In this document: one piece after another, positions 6,172 to 19,461 of the stretch
Layout of the letters: each line of letters starts with the position of its first letter
Position numbering within the stretch: position 1 is the stretch's first letter
Origin: a virus
Length of the DNA: 22,713 nucleotides
Direction: 5' to 3' (one strand)
Virus record (IMG/VR): IMGVR_UViG_3300025769_000914
Location: 1-22,713 of that record
Program-made: the position numbers and the translations under genes
Notes under the pieces: model-generated
The model's input: the letters and a program-made list of their open reading frames with translations, nothing else
Databases searched by the model: none
Told to the model about the DNA's origin: nothing

Positions 6172-6756
6172 TTATACAGCGGTTGGTGTGCCAATAACAA
6201 CATCTCCAGTCAATCCTGCCATTTCACTCACAGGGAAAGTAGCTGATGTAGCATCAACCTCAACAAAGTTTGCTGGGTCTTTTTCCATTGCAGTAAAGGT
6301 TAGGTTGTACCCGTTAAAGTCACCTAAAGCATTTCCAGTAGAAACAGTACCAGCTGTTACGTCAGCACCATTTTCTTTACCCATTAAGAATACATTGTCA
6401 TTCTGGTCAACAATAAATACGTGAGGTCTTCCTGCTGCTAACAATTTCAATTCTTTGTGGTCTTCTTTGGTTAATTTCTTCAAAGTAATATTAAGAACCT
6501 GCTCATAGAATACAGTACCATTATCACGAGATGCGTTAACAGTAGTTTCAAATGAGTTGTTCCCTTTTACTTCGTAAGTAAATAAGGTTAAAGAATTGTC
6601 AACAGCACCAACTGTTGTTCCTGTCATATCAGTAATTTCGTCATCTACAGAAGTGATAGTTCCTAACGTTCCGAAGTCTGCGAAATATATTTTTTTGATT
6701 CCTGCTACTGTATCTTTACAAGCTTCAGCACGAGATCGAGTTAAATTACAAGCCAT
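6172..6756 (-). CDS. Major tail (tube) protein, probable (194 aa)
   Basis: Probable tube-forming subunit. Motifs in order are MACNLTRSRAEACKDTVAGI, IKKIYFADFG, EVKGNNSFETTVNASRDNGT, NITLKKLTKEDHKELKLLAA, GRPHVFIVDQNDNVFLMGKE, and GNALGDFNGYNLTFTAMEKD. I associate this set with major tail proteins of flavobacterial phages and prophages; that is recollection. Flanking hairpin terminators on both sides (6774-6809 upstream, 6122-6148 downstream) suggest separately tuned high expression, as expected for an abundant virion protein. Two Cys lie in the first 15 residues. Its position right after the capsid gene, away from the chaperone and tape measure, is unusual. Confidence 0.75.
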   Translation of the reverse strand: MACNLTRSRAEACKDTVAGIKKIYFADFGTLGTITSVDDEITDMTGTTVGAVDNSLTLFTYEVKGNNSFETTVNASRDNGTVFYEQVLNITLKKLTKEDHKELKLLAAGRPHVFIVDQNDNVFLMGKENGADVTAGTVSTGNALGDFNGYNLTFTAMEKDPANFVEVDATSATFPVSEMAGLTGDVVIGTPTAV

Positions 6757-9109: not shown

Positions 9110-10023
9110 TACTTATCTAGTGAGTTAATTTTAGATTCAGACCAGCTTAAAGCTGATTTTCCACCCCACGCATCGTACATCAGTTTACCACATCCGTCAG
9201 AATAGCCTTTAGAAGCCTTTAGATCGCCTTTATGGCGTGAAAGGTAGCTATACATCCTTTTGATGGTAGATACGCTTATAGCCTCTCTATTTGCTAACTG
9301 GGAGGCTCTACGTTTTCCTACAGCAGTTCCGCAGCTTCCCCAACCATTTTCTTCCGCCCATTCTAAGGCTCTTTTAGCATTGTTTGACACAGAGTCTGGA
9401 TAATCGCTATATGAGGCTAGATTAAGCATCCTAGATTCTAATGCGTCAGAAATCTCTTCTAATAGTGAGATAGCCTCTGGGCTATTTAATTCATCATCCT
9501 GACTCATCTCTACTCTGTCTGTAAAGTAACCTTCTATAGAGAATCCAGATACCTTGCCTGTCTTAACATAGTCTTCCCATACCTCATCATTATTTACCTT
9601 CATAGATACCATCCACGTACCTACTGGTAGATTCATTCCATACTTTCTGGATTTGTCGTGAGTTTCATCTTCTATGATCCAAGACTCTACTACAGATAAT
9701 CCGTGAAGGTCTGCCTGATGCTCTAGGGTAGATTTATTCTGGTTGCCTCGCATTAAAAATAATTCTGACGCCTGACGAACTGTATCATCCGAAAAGAAGA
9801 TATAGTATTCTTCATCCTCATTTTGGCGATAAATGTTCTTGTTTGGAATTAAAGCCGCACCCATAAGCACTCGCTTCTCCTCATCAACCTTAGCTAACTC
9901 TACCTTATCCTCTTTAGATAATGCGATAAACTTTTCCTCGATTGCTGGGCGGTCAACTATGCTGATCGCTTCTATTCCTGAAAGCATTGCTTCCTCATCA
10001 ATAATTAATTCTATTATTCTCAT
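9109..10023 (-). CDS. Prohead maturation protease, XkdF-like, with extra C-terminal domain (304 aa)
   Basis: Probable serine protease that processes scaffold and capsid. Residues ~50-170 match the XkdF-type pattern: MGAALIPNKNIYRQNEDEEY, YIFFSDDTVRQASELFL, STLEHQ with His102, VVESWIIEDETHDKSRKYGM, GTWMVSMKV, and SGFSIEGYF with Ser162. By analogy with HK97-type proteases the His and the Ser of GFSxxG would be catalytic, an inference. Residues ~203-304 form a separate module (YPDSVSNNAKRALEWAEENG, GSCGTAVGKRRASQLANREA, GCGKLMYDAWGGKSALSW) that I recall as an appended domain in other phage proteases or portals. The stop precedes the 83-aa start by a TAATG overlap; the start overlaps the tape measure end by 4 nt. 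Confidence 0.75.
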   Translation of the reverse strand: MRIIELIIDEEAMLSGIEAISIVDRPAIEEKFIALSKEDKVELAKVDEEKRVLMGAALIPNKNIYRQNEDEEYYIFFSDDTVRQASELFLMRGNQNKSTLEHQADLHGLSVVESWIIEDETHDKSRKYGMNLPVGTWMVSMKVNNDEVWEDYVKTGKVSGFSIEGYFTDRVEMSQDDELNSPEAISLLEEISDALESRMLNLASYSDYPDSVSNNAKRALEWAEENGWGSCGTAVGKRRASQLANREAISVSTIKRMYSYLSRHKGDLKASKGYSDGCGKLMYDAWGGKSALSWSESKINSLDK

Positions 10024-12323
10024 ATTCCTGCTGTGTTTACTATGTTTCTATCAAATTCTTGCTGATTGGTAACGTCTTTACCTACAACATATGCTTTTAT
10101 TGGTTCGTTTGTTTGTCCTGCTACGGTTTGCGCCAATTGATCTACAGAAGACGTACCTACTACGTTAAAATTGGGAGCTTGTACTGGTGCGCTCGCTGCT
10201 GAAGCCGAAACTCCATCGGTTTTACCACTACTTAATATATTTTTAGCTCTACTCACGGCACTTAGTAATGTTGTGATTTGCTGTATGTATGTTGCGGCTG
10301 CAATAAAAGGAGCTGCTGGACCCGTACCCTGCGATGCCTCTTGGGCTAATCTAAATCCTTGAATCATACTAACAGCGGTGTTAGTTGCTAATGCCGTTAG
10401 GGCTAATCCTTTCGCTAAGTCAGAACCTTCTTTCGCTAATGCAGCAGCAGCATCTAGCATATTTGCTGTTTCAGTAAAAACGCTTAATTTAGAGGCTAAA
10501 ACTACTCTATCTGTTTCCAGATTTATAGCAGCAGTTTCCTCTGCATAACTAGCATCTAAATTTTTCTTTTTCTGAATCAAAGCCTCATAAGCCTCTCCTT
10601 CAGCTTTAGCTAGACTTATTTTCTGATCTAAGGCATTACGCTCAAATTCATATTGTGAATCTAAAAGAGCTTGCTCTATCATTAACTGCTCGCTCCTTTC
10701 TTCGGAAGCTGATCTTTGAGCTTTTAGTCTATCTTGTATGCCTTTTATAGCCTCTAATCCAAAAGCGGATAAATCGTCAAGTATTTGTTGCTCTACAATT
10801 ATGTCTTGCATATTACCATAAGAATCTATAATACTCATAGTGGCATCTGCAAACGAATTTTTTATCTCATCTAAGGATTGCGAATACCTCTTATTAGCTT
10901 CGGTAGCTACTGAAACAAATTGATTAAGAATGTCACTCCTTCTTAAAGAAGCTTTATTTCTAATGTCTTGCTTTTCTTCTTCAGTCTTAGCCTCTAGGAG
11001 CAGTTCAGACTCTTTACTGTTTATTTGATCAAGAAGATTTTGTTTCCTAAGCTCAACACTTTCTATATATGCCTGATAACGAACTTTTTCTCTTTCGGTC
11101 TCATTTCTAGCGGCTAAATCTAATTCCCTTATAGCCTGCTTCTTTCTTATGTCTAAATTTTGTATTTCAGACTTTTTTAAGAATGTTTCTTCTTTCTTCA
11201 ATGCTTTTTCAGCATATCTATCAAAATCCTTTAACCTTAACTCATATGAGTTAAAATATTCTCTATTTGCAATTCTTAGTGACTTAGATCTAACTTTAGA
11301 GCCTTTATCCACCTCTAAATTGAACAATTGCTCAATTTCAATTTTTCGTCTAGTTAGTTGTAAGAATTTACTAGTAGCCGTAACAAACCCTTGTGAGCCT
11401 TCTCGGATAATCTTTTGACCATCTTCATTAACTGCGTTTAATCTAGCCTCTACAATAGCTATTTCTCTCCTAATGTTTAATAATTCTCCAAACTTAACTC
11501 TAAGCTCATTAACGGCTTCCACACCCTTTAATGTTCTTTCAGGATCAAATGTCTTATCGAAACCTTCTCTAATAGTTAATATAGCTCCTTCCTCAATAGC
11601 GTCTAATGCTTTAGCAAACATAGAAGCTGAATCAGCTAGAAGCATATTAGCATCAGCACCTAATTTTCCGATGTTTCCATATTTCTGTACTGCGCCAGTA
11701 AGTCTTTCAAATGACTTTATTTGCTTATCTATGCTTTCGGTTGCTTCGTCTATAGATTTCTGAAACTTACTAGCTTCTTTTGCTGATCCAGAGAAAAATG
11801 CGAATATTTTATCTCCATACGCTATTAAAAGCTGAACACCAATAAGTATACCACCAGTACCTAAGAGAGAATTAGCTAAGTTTCTAAGAGAAGTACCTAC
11901 ATTATCGCTAGTGTTTATAAGCGAACCAAATAAACTAGCTAACTGACCAACGTTATTCGCCACACCATTAAATCCAAATCTAAGGTCAGACGCTGCTCTT
12001 CCTGCTTCTTGTAGTATAGCATTATTTAGACCAACCTGTGTTCTAAACTGTTTAGTTCCTGCGCTTGCCTTTTTAGTAGACATTTCATATACAGCAGCAA
12101 TTTTACCTGCATTCTGCATTTCATAGTTGAGCTTCTTCTGTTGAGCAGCTGCTAACTTCTGTTCACCTCTAAGCGATGCCTGCTCAAATTTATTTTTATT
12201 GCTTTGCTCCGCTAGTACTCCAAATGATTTACTAAGGTTATCAGTACCCTTTTTTAGATCATTGACCCTAGCTTTAGCTTCACCAGACTCAACATTTATG
12301 CTAATTAGAATTTCTTGCGCCAT
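10020..12323 (-). CDS. Tape measure protein (767 aa)
   Basis: Longest tail gene, which sets tail length and is threaded through the tube. The N-terminus MAQEILISINVESGEAKARV then NDLKKGTDNLSKSFGVLAEQ is the usual tape measure opening. A hydrophobic, membrane-compatible segment lies at ~145-178 (LLGTGGILIGVQLLIAYGDK). Residues ~330-620 are long charged coiled coil. A second Ala/Leu/Ile-rich hydrophobic region covers ~645-705 (GLALTALATNTAVSMIQGFR). At about 0.15 nm per residue the tail would be roughly 115 nm. No lysozyme or peptidase domain is evident. It overlaps the 52-aa gene by 23 nt at its start and the protease gene by 4 nt at its end. Confidence 0.85.
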   Translation of the reverse strand: MAQEILISINVESGEAKARVNDLKKGTDNLSKSFGVLAEQSNKNKFEQASLRGEQKLAAAQQKKLNYEMQNAGKIAAVYEMSTKKASAGTKQFRTQVGLNNAILQEAGRAASDLRFGFNGVANNVGQLASLFGSLINTSDNVGTSLRNLANSLLGTGGILIGVQLLIAYGDKIFAFFSGSAKEASKFQKSIDEATESIDKQIKSFERLTGAVQKYGNIGKLGADANMLLADSASMFAKALDAIEEGAILTIREGFDKTFDPERTLKGVEAVNELRVKFGELLNIRREIAIVEARLNAVNEDGQKIIREGSQGFVTATSKFLQLTRRKIEIEQLFNLEVDKGSKVRSKSLRIANREYFNSYELRLKDFDRYAEKALKKEETFLKKSEIQNLDIRKKQAIRELDLAARNETEREKVRYQAYIESVELRKQNLLDQINSKESELLLEAKTEEEKQDIRNKASLRRSDILNQFVSVATEANKRYSQSLDEIKNSFADATMSIIDSYGNMQDIIVEQQILDDLSAFGLEAIKGIQDRLKAQRSASEERSEQLMIEQALLDSQYEFERNALDQKISLAKAEGEAYEALIQKKKNLDASYAEETAAINLETDRVVLASKLSVFTETANMLDAAAALAKEGSDLAKGLALTALATNTAVSMIQGFRLAQEASQGTGPAAPFIAAATYIQQITTLLSAVSRAKNILSSGKTDGVSASAASAPVQAPNFNVVGTSSVDQLAQTVAGQTNEPIKAYVVGKDVTNQQEFDRNIVNTAGI

Positions 12324-17144: not shown

Positions 17145-17719
17145 TATACGAATTTTATTGTTTTACCCTTTAGATCAAAGCCTGCCTCCCTTAGAATATC
17201 CTCCACACTCTCTTTTACATCCTCCACTACAGGAGCAACTACCTTTAGGTTTTTTAGGTGGCTTTGTACTGTTTCTGTTATAAACCCTGTTGGGTCGATT
17301 CCATTTGAGTTTATCTTTTTGGTTATTCTTTTTGCCAACTGGAGTACTGTTGGACTGTTCGCCGAGTACTTCGAGTAATTGGTTGTTCTGTTTCCGTTGA
17401 TGTCCTTGTACCCTAGAGGTTTGCTCACTATCCATTCAGCTATATCTGTTACTTTTGCTCCGCCAGTTGGAGTACCTCCTGAATCTATATTTTGGAGGTA
17501 ATCGTCACCAACGATATTTATATTTAATCCGTTTTCTAGTTGTTTTTTTGTATATTGTATTCTTTTCGCCGACTCTCCAGTATTATTTATTACTGGATTC
17601 AGAAAACCTCTAGCAGTTCTACTATTAACAGGAGAATTCATTTTCTTCCGAAGGAGTATCATTAGCTTCTTGGCGTAGTTTTCCATATAGGCTTCGGTAT
17701 TTTTAGTTTTTATGGACAT
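17144..17719 (-). CDS. Neck / tail completion protein, HK97 gp10-like (191 aa)
   Basis: Lys/Asn-rich protein with a basic helical N-terminus (ENYAKKLMILLRKKMNSPVN) and a beta segment RIQYTKKQLENGLNINIVGD. A loop-plus-helix follows (DSGGTPTGGAKVTDIAEWIV then SKPLGYKDINGN, residues ~79-110). Near the C-terminus is the helix SPTVLQLAKRITKKINSNGI and the segment GFITETVQSHLKNL. Size, basic charge and position next to the tail-terminator candidate resemble HK97 gp10-type neck proteins; that is an inference, not a firm match. It overlaps the upstream gene by 10 nt and the 417-aa gene by 1 nt. Confidence 0.55.
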   Translation of the reverse strand: MSIKTKNTEAYMENYAKKLMILLRKKMNSPVNSRTARGFLNPVINNTGESAKRIQYTKKQLENGLNINIVGDDYLQNIDSGGTPTGGAKVTDIAEWIVSKPLGYKDINGNRTTNYSKYSANSPTVLQLAKRITKKINSNGIDPTGFITETVQSHLKNLKVVAPVVEDVKESVEDILREAGFDLKGKTIKFV

Positions 17720-18201
17720 TGGCTTCCGTCTGCATTTATTAACGCCATATCATTATTTGGCATATTAATATTAACCGTCATCGACCATCCTGTTACTTTG
17801 TTCTCGAATCTATCTTCAAATAATTGCGCTGTAGGGTTGCCGTCTATTTCATAGTTAGCATCATACATACCGCCTCTACGTAAAGAAGATTGTATACCAT
17901 TTACAACGTTTAGTAACGAATTGTGGATATCGTGAGTATTGTCTAAACCTAAGTGTGGCTTTTCCTTAGATAGTTTATCATCTTTTTCATCATCAACAAT
18001 ATCCATAACAATTATATTCAAAGATACGGTCATAATGTATTCCTGAAATGTAATCGAAGATACGCCAACGTGAGCTAATGGGAATATTGTCTGCTTTGAC
18101 AAATCTACCTCTAATAGATCGCCAAAGGTAACTGTATTGATCAAACTGCTGCCATTTAAGTAGGCGAATAGCTTATCGATTAAGTTGTAGTATGTTTTCA
18201 T
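17710..18201 (-). CDS. Tail terminator-like / minor tail protein (163 aa)
   Basis: Small alpha/beta protein: an N-terminal helix (MKTYYNLIDKLFAYLNGSSL), then strand-rich segments (LSKQTIFPLAHVGVSSITFQ, IMTVSLNIIVMDIVDDEKDD). A helix follows around residues 85-110 (DIHNSLLNVVNGIQSSLRRG), and the last strands include VTGWSMTVNINMPNND. This order resembles lambda gpU/HK97 gp9-type tail terminators, which cap the tube and join it to the head. The start shares ATGA with the stop of the frameshifted chaperone frame, not with the 0-frame stop. That is extra support for translation of the shifted frame. Confidence 0.55.
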   Translation of the reverse strand: MKTYYNLIDKLFAYLNGSSLINTVTFGDLLEVDLSKQTIFPLAHVGVSSITFQEYIMTVSLNIIVMDIVDDEKDDKLSKEKPHLGLDNTHDIHNSLLNVVNGIQSSLRRGGMYDANYEIDGNPTAQLFEDRFENKVTGWSMTVNINMPNNDMALINADGSQCP

Positions 18202-18964
18202 TGTTTATATTGTTTTCGTATCATTTTAGCTTCTAGTTCATTCTTCTCCTTCTCAAACGTTAGGAATGTTAGGCATTGGTGGAGGGGGATTGTCGTAACT
18301 TCATCAAATCTTCTGACATCTCCCTTAGCAAGCGCATAGATACTTTGATACCATCCCCACTTTTTTCCAAAGCCATCCTCACTTGAGATGTTATGTCCTC
18401 CCTCTGAAGAGTCTTCTCCATAAAGTTCAGGGTAGTCGCCGATAACTCGATCCCTAAATTGTAAAAAAAAAGCGTACAACTCATCACTACACTCAAAGGC
18501 ATCTCCTTCATTAATTCATTTATCTCATCACTAGGCTCATATGGAGCTATAGTATAGCGCTCTTTTGATCTAAAGTTTACTGGGCGATACAATACAGCCA
18601 TAGCCTTATGCATATCATCCCAATTACCAAAGTAATTCTCTACATCAATATATTCGCCCAAAGACATATCATCCAGTTTCGGAATGAATCCCATATCAAC
18701 ATCTAGCAGTTTGAAGTGGCGAATAAGATCGTAATCCTTCTCAAAAGCCATTTTAAGCACTCCTAAGAGACTTTCTATGTCTCGGTAAGGTATCTTATCC
18801 ACTAGGTCGTATTCGATGCCGCAAAACGCCTCTATGAGCTTCTTATTGATAAACTCCGCATCCTTTACCTCATCTTTACCCTTTATTGCGCCCAAATAAT
18901 ATTGGTACTGCCCTAAGGATATCTCTTCTAGACTGTCTGGTACGATTAGCTTTAATTCTTCCAT
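18198..18964 (-). CDS. Tail assembly chaperone, -1 frameshift long form (gpGT-like, 255 aa)
   Basis: Predicted product of a -1 shift at the T9 run (18463-18471). It has 167 residues in the start frame, then 88 residues from the overlapping frame, which is open to 18198. The shifted C-terminus reads LQFRDRVIGDYPELYGEDSS and later GFGKKWGWYQSIYALAKGDV (Trp203 and Trp205 of the fusion), ending in a Lys/Glu helix. WGWY..LAkGD followed by a charged helix is what I associate with tape measure chaperone C-terminal domains of flavobacterial phages. The shifted frame ends in an ATGA overlap with the next gene. By analogy with lambda gpG/gpGT, the long form would bridge the tape measure and tail tube subunits. 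Confidence 0.7.
18269..18964 (-). CDS. Tail assembly chaperone, 0-frame form (gpG-like, 231 aa)
   Basis: Starts MEELKLIVPDSLEEISLGQY and continues with AEFINKKLIEAFCGIEYDLV, DVDMGFIPKLDDMSLGEYID and YRPVNFRSKERYTIAPYEPS. This is the usual ILPxxxxxIxLGQ-like opening and helical layout of chaperone N-terminal domains in this phage group (recollection). Without frameshifting it runs 64 codons past the slip site, ending in a Met/Glu/Leu-rich helical tail (FMEKTLQREDITSQVRMALE, LRQSPSTNA). A 0-frame tail this long after the slip site is unusual; in the lambda system it is only a few codons. It is the first gene of the virion operon. Confidence 0.75.
   Translation of the reverse strand: MEELKLIVPDSLEEISLGQYQYYLGAIKGKDEVKDAEFINKKLIEAFCGIEYDLVDKIPYRDIESLLGVLKMAFEKDYDLIRHFKLLDVDMGFIPKLDDMSLGEYIDVENYFGNWDDMHKAMAVLYRPVNFRSKERYTIAPYEPSDEINELMKEMPLSVVMSCTLFFYNLGIELSATTLNFMEKTLQREDITSQVRMALEKSGDGIKVSMRLLREMSEDLMKLRQSPSTNA
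18463..18471 (-). promoter_or_regulatory. Slippery site for -1 frameshift in the chaperone gene
   Basis: Nine consecutive T residues on the coding strand contain a perfect T-TTT-TTT heptamer in the start frame (18470-18464, codons 166-167). Shifting -1 changes CTT-TTT-TTT-TAC reading into TTT-TTT-TTA-CAA. A weak AGGG/CCCT pairing is possible downstream, but no strong pseudoknot is visible. A T9 run could also cause polymerase slippage, giving the same fusion from a heterogeneous mRNA. Confidence 0.7.
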
Positions 18965-19022
18965 TGTTATATTAACTGTGTTTATTGTTTATGTACTGAA
19001 GGGAATCTCCAACTGATAGATT

Positions 19023-19160
19023 GACACCTCTATACATAAAGTATGTATATATATTATACACAATAGTGTATATATACTGTATACTTGTATACTGTATGTA
19101 AAATATATATAAACCCTTAGTTATAGTATATATACTATTATATATATATGTGACAAAATG
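19023..19160 (-). promoter_or_regulatory. Extremely AT-rich leader upstream of the virion operon
   Basis: Between the 94-aa gene and the chaperone start is a TA-alternating stretch. I count 21 G/C in 110 bases over 19051-19160 (about 19%). It holds an 8-bp inverted repeat TATACATA-aag-TATGTATA (19032-19050), repeated TGTATACT units near 19078-19098, and a 16-bp perfect palindrome (19123-19138). No TAnnTTTG box is present. It is the expected place for the late promoter or a regulator site. Confidence 0.45.
19123..19138. repeat. Perfect 16-bp palindrome ATAGTATATATACTAT
   Basis: Exactly self-complementary over 16 bp, inside the AT-rich leader about 160 bp upstream of the chaperone start. In a TA-rich context some palindromy is expected by chance, but the ATAG/CTAT ends make this a candidate dimer-binding operator. 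Confidence 0.5.
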
Positions 19161-19176
19161 ACACTTGGAAATATTT

Positions 19177-19461
19177 CTAATTTTTGGTGTCATAGTAGTA
19201 GCAGTAGAGTTCCCAGATTTTGGCATATACTTCTTTTGGCGTATATTTTTTAGGAGATTTTATCTTTATTCCGTTCTGGTCAATCGCTATTGTCATTTCG
19301 CCAGTAGGAATGTGGTTAGGTCTGTATTTATTCTTACTTGTGTTGATAGAATCCACCTCAACCCAGATAATGATTCCGTTTTTTAAGCACCATTGCTTAC
19401 AAATATGCATATCATCCCTGAAATAATCATCACTAACAATCTTCTTATACCTCTTAGCCAT
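19177..19461 (-). CDS. Unknown protein (94 aa)
   Basis: The frame opens with a TTG at 19467; I prefer the ATG at 19461, giving MAKRYKKIVSDDYFRDDMHI. It is basic and Tyr/Lys-rich, with a central stretch GIIIWVEVDSINTSKNKYRP and a C-terminal helix KKYTPKEVYAKIWELYCYYY. The part PTGEMTIAIDQNGIKIKSPK resembles two short strands. No signal peptide or membrane helix. I do not recognise the family. It stands alone between an unexplained segment and the AT-rich leader. Its location just before the virion operon would suit a late regulator, but there is no motif for DNA binding. Confidence 0.6.
   Translation of the reverse strand: MAKRYKKIVSDDYFRDDMHICKQWCLKNGIIIWVEVDSINTSKNKYRPNHIPTGEMTIAIDQNGIKIKSPKKYTPKEVYAKIWELYCYYYDTKN

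Follow-up and report, generated by a model that had tools for sequence, protein, structure and literature searches.

Evidence for two selected C-terminal tails downstream of a conserved T run in a late gene of Bacteroidota phages

The gene described here, referred to as the slip gene, lies on the minus strand of the window, which is the whole 22,713-nucleotide stretch of viral DNA that was analyzed. Its frame 0 begins with the ATG at 18964, stops at 18269 and encodes 231 amino acids. The heptamer T_TTT_TTT is found in frame at 18470-18464 and ends codon 167; it is part of a run of nine Ts that spans codons 165-168 and is the longest homopolymer of the whole window. Past the heptamer, 64 codons are open in frame 0 and 88 in frame -1, and the predicted fusion protein has 255 amino acids. 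The initial annotation had described the heptamer, the lengths of the two open frames and an ATGA overlap with the next gene, and this layout was correct; the strand, which it left unstated, is minus. The features are as follows:

18269..18964, minus strand: frame-0 gene, consisting of the shared N-terminal domain (codons 1-167) and the frame-0 tail (open reading frame, phrog_32199 match and structure model)
18463..18471, minus strand: T9 slip run, CTT TTT TTT TAC in frame 0 (read from the letters; A9 on the plus strand)
18198..18464, minus strand: frame -1 tail, 88 amino acids and a stop, with the KKWGWYQSIYALAKGD motif (alignments; no conserved start lies ahead of it, and slippage appears to be the only route)
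18269..18463, minus strand: dual-coding stretch, 64 frame-0 codons and the stop, which also codes for the frame -1 tail (synonymous change reduced in both frames)
18454..18456, minus strand: TAG stop of the third (+1) frame, 3 codons past the T run (the third frame is closed in relatives too)
18198..18201, minus strand: ATGA, in which the frame -1 stop (TGA, 18200-18198) overlaps the start of the next gene (ATG, 18201-18199)
17710..18201, minus strand: next gene, 163 amino acids, phrog_30964 of unknown function (open reading frame and PHROG match)
10020..12323, minus strand: tape measure-like protein, 767 amino acids (assigned by its length, composition and position; the Galbibacter locus has the same gene order)

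In 79 of 119 non-redundant relatives, the following gene begins at the ATGA offset. The region before the slip gene (18965-19180) is AT-rich with repeated 'tatata' and without a convincing open reading frame, and it is possibly a promoter region.

Residues 5-180 of the frame-0 protein matched phrog_32199 (function unknown) with an E-value of 1e-16. The frame-0 protein was modelled with a mean pLDDT of 82, and its tail forms helices at residues 157-187, 193-201 and 205-225, along which the confidence drops from 79 to 61-71 and is lower still at the very end. The -1 tail modelled alone (pLDDT 65) contains helices at residues 28-45, 50-56 and 61-87. A curated chaperone family was sought for the slip-gene product, and we found no Pfam or NCBIfam match of weight and only a PHROG without a function. 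Individual alignment members had NCBIfam matches, but these were sporadic and unrelated to phages, and they were rejected. A fold search of the PDB with the frame-0 model gave no match at E 0.001, and a second look at the PDB gave mostly helix matches to residues 165-231 with Z-scores under 6. Among predicted viral structures, many uncharacterized phage proteins matched, and one annotated tail assembly chaperone matched weakly (E 0.21). Two of the uncharacterized proteins, A0A6J5N0W0 and A0A516L5A8, matched the frame-0 model and, with a weaker match, also that of the -1 tail; judged from the models, they may be counterparts of the fusion that are encoded in a single frame. Flavobacterium phage 6H was considered after a structure match and then dropped.

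When viral contigs were searched with the fusion protein, 80 first relatives were obtained; in all 80, a T heptamer lies in frame and both reading frames continue far beyond the T run. Further scans and genome searches brought the collection to 350 loci, and both the N-domain and the -1 tail were readable in 344 of them; no -1 tail was recognized in the other six because, mostly or in all cases, the contig ends there. Grouping by shared DNA words reduced the 344 loci to 121 non-redundant ones. The run is T9 in 227 loci, T10 in 113, T11 in two rows and T12 in two rows, and the last four rows represent two contigs, each fetched twice. None of the 344 loci (121 non-redundant) has a run shorter than nine Ts, and the runs fall into four registers; a fifth, GGT TTT TTT TTG, was seen in locus L354. 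The run of at least nine As or Ts that characterizes transcriptional-slippage genes is present in all 344 loci and also in L353 and L354. Conservation of the slip site among homologues had been proposed as a check, and the T run was indeed kept.

The carriers of the slip gene are a family of phages and prophages whose hosts are Flavobacteriia and other Bacteroidota. Among isolates, it was found in Nonlabens phages P12024L and P12024S, and it is also present in the Galbibacter pacificus genome; 3 of 397 Galbibacter-family genomes carry it. One relative (L086) lies on a contig that was binned as an epsilonproteobacterial genome, and its slip gene shows 97-100% protein identity to two marine viral contigs (L168-L169); this assignment is probably a binning error. 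In another case (L057 and L059), the slip gene stands at both ends of one 37,967-base contig, like an assembly with repeated ends.

Homopolymers are error-prone, and an error of sequencing or assembly in the T run would mean that the true gene is one continuous frame. Deviating runs are known from T8 in L355, T7 in L356 and the T11 and T12 of two viral contigs. However, a run that keeps the frames apart is common to 340 of the 344 loci from many samples, to two isolated phages and to two bacterial genome assemblies, and selection acts on both frames, as described below. Error is refuted as a general explanation, and we give it practically no credence. The two records with the shortest runs, CP045836.1 (L355, Lysinibacillus) and NZ_CP040811.1 (L356, Escherichia fergusonii), are 'plasmid' records of 66-67 kb that contain a slip-gene relative, and L356 has other frame breaks as well. 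Their short runs are probably sequencing errors, and the two records appear to represent one phage with long-read errors, possibly a contaminant. The T11 and T12 contigs (L198/L273 and L199/L274) are related to each other, and their frames are fused or shifted, through either an error or a variant.

Counted from the end of the run, frame 0 continues for 54-83 codons in 118 of the 121 non-redundant relatives; in the remaining three it continues for 15 codons, 24 codons and, in the T12 contig, 2 codons. The two short-tailed relatives, Nonlabens phage P12024L and L210, are paired on a long branch of the tree. The tree was rooted at its midpoint for drawing only, and whether the short or the long tail is the older state is not read from it. 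The annotation of P12024L (L082, 10528-10695) assigns the last part of the -1 tail to a small gene of its own, the ATG of which overlaps the frame-0 stop.

An open frame 0 of this length could be a by-product of base composition and a conserved -1 protein, so that the fusion alone would be functional. This would agree with the -1 motif GKKWGWYQSIY, which itself spells a stop-free stretch of frame 0, and with the low structural confidence of part of the frame-0 tail. It is opposed by the 118 relatives with a long frame 0 and by the results of recoding: when the -1 tail was recoded at random with synonymous codons, frame 0 stayed open in 0.95% of trials for the window and in a median of 0.7% for 40 relatives. 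In the reverse test, the other frame was kept open in a median of 0.3% of trials.

Synonymous change was compared with an expectation taken from the single-coding N-terminal part of the same pairs. For 17 close pairs, the ratio of observed to expected change was 0.46 for frame -1 in the overlap, 0.30 for frame 0 in the overlap and 0.73 past the overlap. In a larger set of 66 disjoint pairs, we found 431 changes against 1093 expected in frame -1 of the overlap (0.39), 283 against 1045 in frame 0 of the overlap (0.27) and 222 against 322.5 in frame -1 past the overlap (0.69). In the first 32 codons of the overlap, frame -1 showed 0.25-0.34 of expectation. The ratio of 0.69 points to some constraint on the gene end even in the absence of frame 0, and the next gene's start may be its cause; 0.39 is therefore best compared with 0.69.

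The short-tailed relatives provided a natural control, because their frame 0 ends early and the rest of their -1 tail is coded only once. Past the overlap, frame -1 showed 12 changes against 10.6 expected in the pair L082/L209 (1.13) and 18 against 18.2 in L082/L210 (0.99); these two ratios, close to 1, are a further point against a functional fusion alone. The pair L082/L083 showed 5 against 1.4 (3.7, z 3.2), a ratio that rests on five differences because the two genomes are very close. L208 is a second copy of L082, and its pairs repeat those of L082. No suppression of frame -1 synonymous change past the overlap was found in the short-tailed pairs, which are few and all share L082, and this control speaks for the dual-coding reading but would not suffice for it by itself.

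Synonymous change is reduced in both frames, and therefore both tails are selected; purifying selection on both frames of a shared stretch is the mark of a dual-coding gene. As far as nucleotide sequences can tell, the dual coding is real, and the view that frame 0 is an idle by-product of the fusion is very improbable. One N-terminus with two long C-termini, as the initial annotation had proposed, is strongly supported by these comparisons. The reduced synonymous change that it had named as a check was observed in both frames across the overlap and was weak or absent where only one frame is open.

With regard to the route to the -1 tail, no start codon column was widely shared ahead of its last codons, and the upstream starts were scattered. 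No RNA structure stood out past the T run, where mean z values ranged from -0.24 to 0.18 over four window choices. The third frame was closed within 0-3 codons of the T run in all 340 loci tested, which follows in part from the coded residues. Since we found neither a conserved internal start nor an RNA structure, the -1 tail is most likely made via slippage on the T run, and both proteins are presumably produced, at some ratio.

In the proposed mechanism, the T9 or T10 run at codons 165-168 would be the slip element. Most expression would read straight through it and give the 231-residue protein with the helical frame-0 tail. In a minority of cases, the polymerase would add a U, or the ribosome would step back by one base, and the 255-residue protein with the -1 tail would result. 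Because the frame -1 stop overlaps the next start, expression of the next gene may be coupled to slippage.

Bacterial RNA polymerase slips efficiently at nine As or Ts (PMC5009743), and the run here has 9-10 Ts in every register, which leans slightly towards the polymerase over the ribosome. About six switches of register or length were counted on the tree, read by eye from its labels. In the ribosomal version, the ribosome would slip by -1 on T_TTT_TTT, as in P2 E/E+E' and lambda G/GT; the extra Ts would reflect coded residues only, and both long tails would be as described. The in-frame heptamer is always present, P2-like phages use T6G, T7G or T7C without an RNA structure (PMC3931495, PMC3091744), and the well-studied tail cases that we found are all ribosomal. 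Nine Ts, however, hold a heptamer in every frame, so that the heptamer is not independent evidence, and P2-like runs vary between T6 and T7, whereas none here is shorter than nine across five states of register and length. The flanking codons encode conserved hydrophobic or aromatic residues that favor flanking Ts and partly explain them, and the run-length argument for the polymerase is only suggestive for this reason. By judgement rather than computation, we consider RNA polymerase slippage slightly favored as the source of the second product, and ribosomal slippage a serious candidate that falls somewhat short of even odds. The broader proposal, that the ratio of two proteins from a phage late gene is determined by polymerase slippage instead of ribosomal frameshifting, with both long C-termini encoded by the same DNA and selected family-wide in Bacteroidota phages, could equally well prove right or wrong.

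To place the slip gene among the late genes, its neighborhood was compared with that of the Galbibacter locus, which has the order terminase, slip gene, genes of 149 and 165 amino acids, two larger genes, tape measure-like gene and protease. Compared from the slip gene on, with the terminase not included, the window has the same series and one extra gene, and five genes stand between its slip gene and its tape measure-like gene. By position, the next gene (17710..18201) would be a head-tail connector or tail terminator, and the likely tube gene is found at 6172-6756, beyond the capsid gene. In gpG/gpGT systems, the gene is flanked by the genes for the major tail protein (tube) and the tape measure; the slip gene is not, and we describe it as working like gpG/gpGT rather than as a member of that group.

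A tail-chaperone identity had been proposed for this gene, and it is plausible from the architecture and the tail-gene context; it found no support in Pfam, PHROG or the PDB, and the position is unlike that in lambda and P2. Likewise, the WGWY..LAKGD motif, previously read as a chaperone-like signature, is highly conserved but matches no curated chaperone family. The products might instead have another late function near the head-tail joint, such as that of a connector or terminator accessory, and not chaperone the tape measure. In P12024L and Galbibacter, the slip gene stands between the terminase and two genes that are connector-like by place, an arrangement that, together with the missing family and fold matches, fits such a function. 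Against it, a tail-region gene that yields two products by a -1 shift is the characteristic sign of tail assembly chaperones across many unrelated phages (PMC5009743, PMC3091744), and the weak match among predicted structures was to an annotated tail assembly chaperone. We consider a function at the head-tail joint rather unlikely, though it deserves attention, and tail chaperone is the most likely role of the slip-gene products, held with fair rather than high confidence by analogy with known systems. By the same analogy with lambda gpG/gpGT, binding of the tape measure would fall to the shared N-terminal domain, and the WGWY domain of the rarer fusion would bring in the tail tube protein. 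Taken together, the best explanation of the locus is a late slip gene with two selected tails and a probable role in tail assembly, to which we assign a probability of roughly 0.7.

In the tail-chaperone slip genes that were compared, frame 0 ends early and the products differ mainly by an added domain (PMC10885494). Here both products end in long selected tails, which suggests a separate job for each. The slip gene is a natural system for the study of one DNA stretch that serves two proteins, and its constant run of 9-10 Ts is present in an isolated phage and in a cultured host genome, so that experiments can directly distinguish between polymerase and ribosome. Gene finders will overlook the -1 tail or call a second gene there, as happened in P12024L, and the annotation of this locus is therefore probably wrong in many phages.

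The gpG/gpGT-type chaperones are made at a product ratio near 30:1, are absent from the virion and bind the tape measure and the tube. The slip gene resembles lambda gpG/gpGT in having one start, two predicted products by a -1 shift at a slippery site and a place in a late-gene operon, with a rarer fusion that adds a C-terminal domain; this resemblance is one of sequence layout. The two differ in that the lambda gene lies between the tube and tape measure genes, and no alignment or sequence relation to lambda G and T was found. The slip-gene protein nevertheless probably works like gpG/gpGT.

Thermus dnaX and Shigella mxiE and spa13, which depend on RNA polymerase slippage, are also similar in that a homopolymer in the coding frame and an added base give a second product (PMC5009743), and the slip run of Thermus dnaX consists of nine As or Ts (PMC5009743). 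In contrast to the slip gene, they are not phage tail genes, and for the slip gene slippage of this type is only a candidate mechanism. The P2 E/E+E' genes and their relatives share the T-run slip, the -1 shift, the lack of a downstream structure and a fusion frame that overlaps the next start (PMC3931495, PMC3091744). The P2-like runs are T6-T7 (T6G in P2 itself) compared with 9-10 Ts here, and P2 E' reaches 37 nt back into E, whereas about 160-250 nt are double-coded here. In two collections of tail chaperones, the mean distance from slip site to stop is 26-36 nt (PMC10885494), compared with a frame-0 tail of 64 codons in the window and 54-83 in nearly all relatives. Compared with the textbook cases from phages, the stretch of DNA that is used twice is far longer here, and more than 300 related viral sequences have kept the arrangement.
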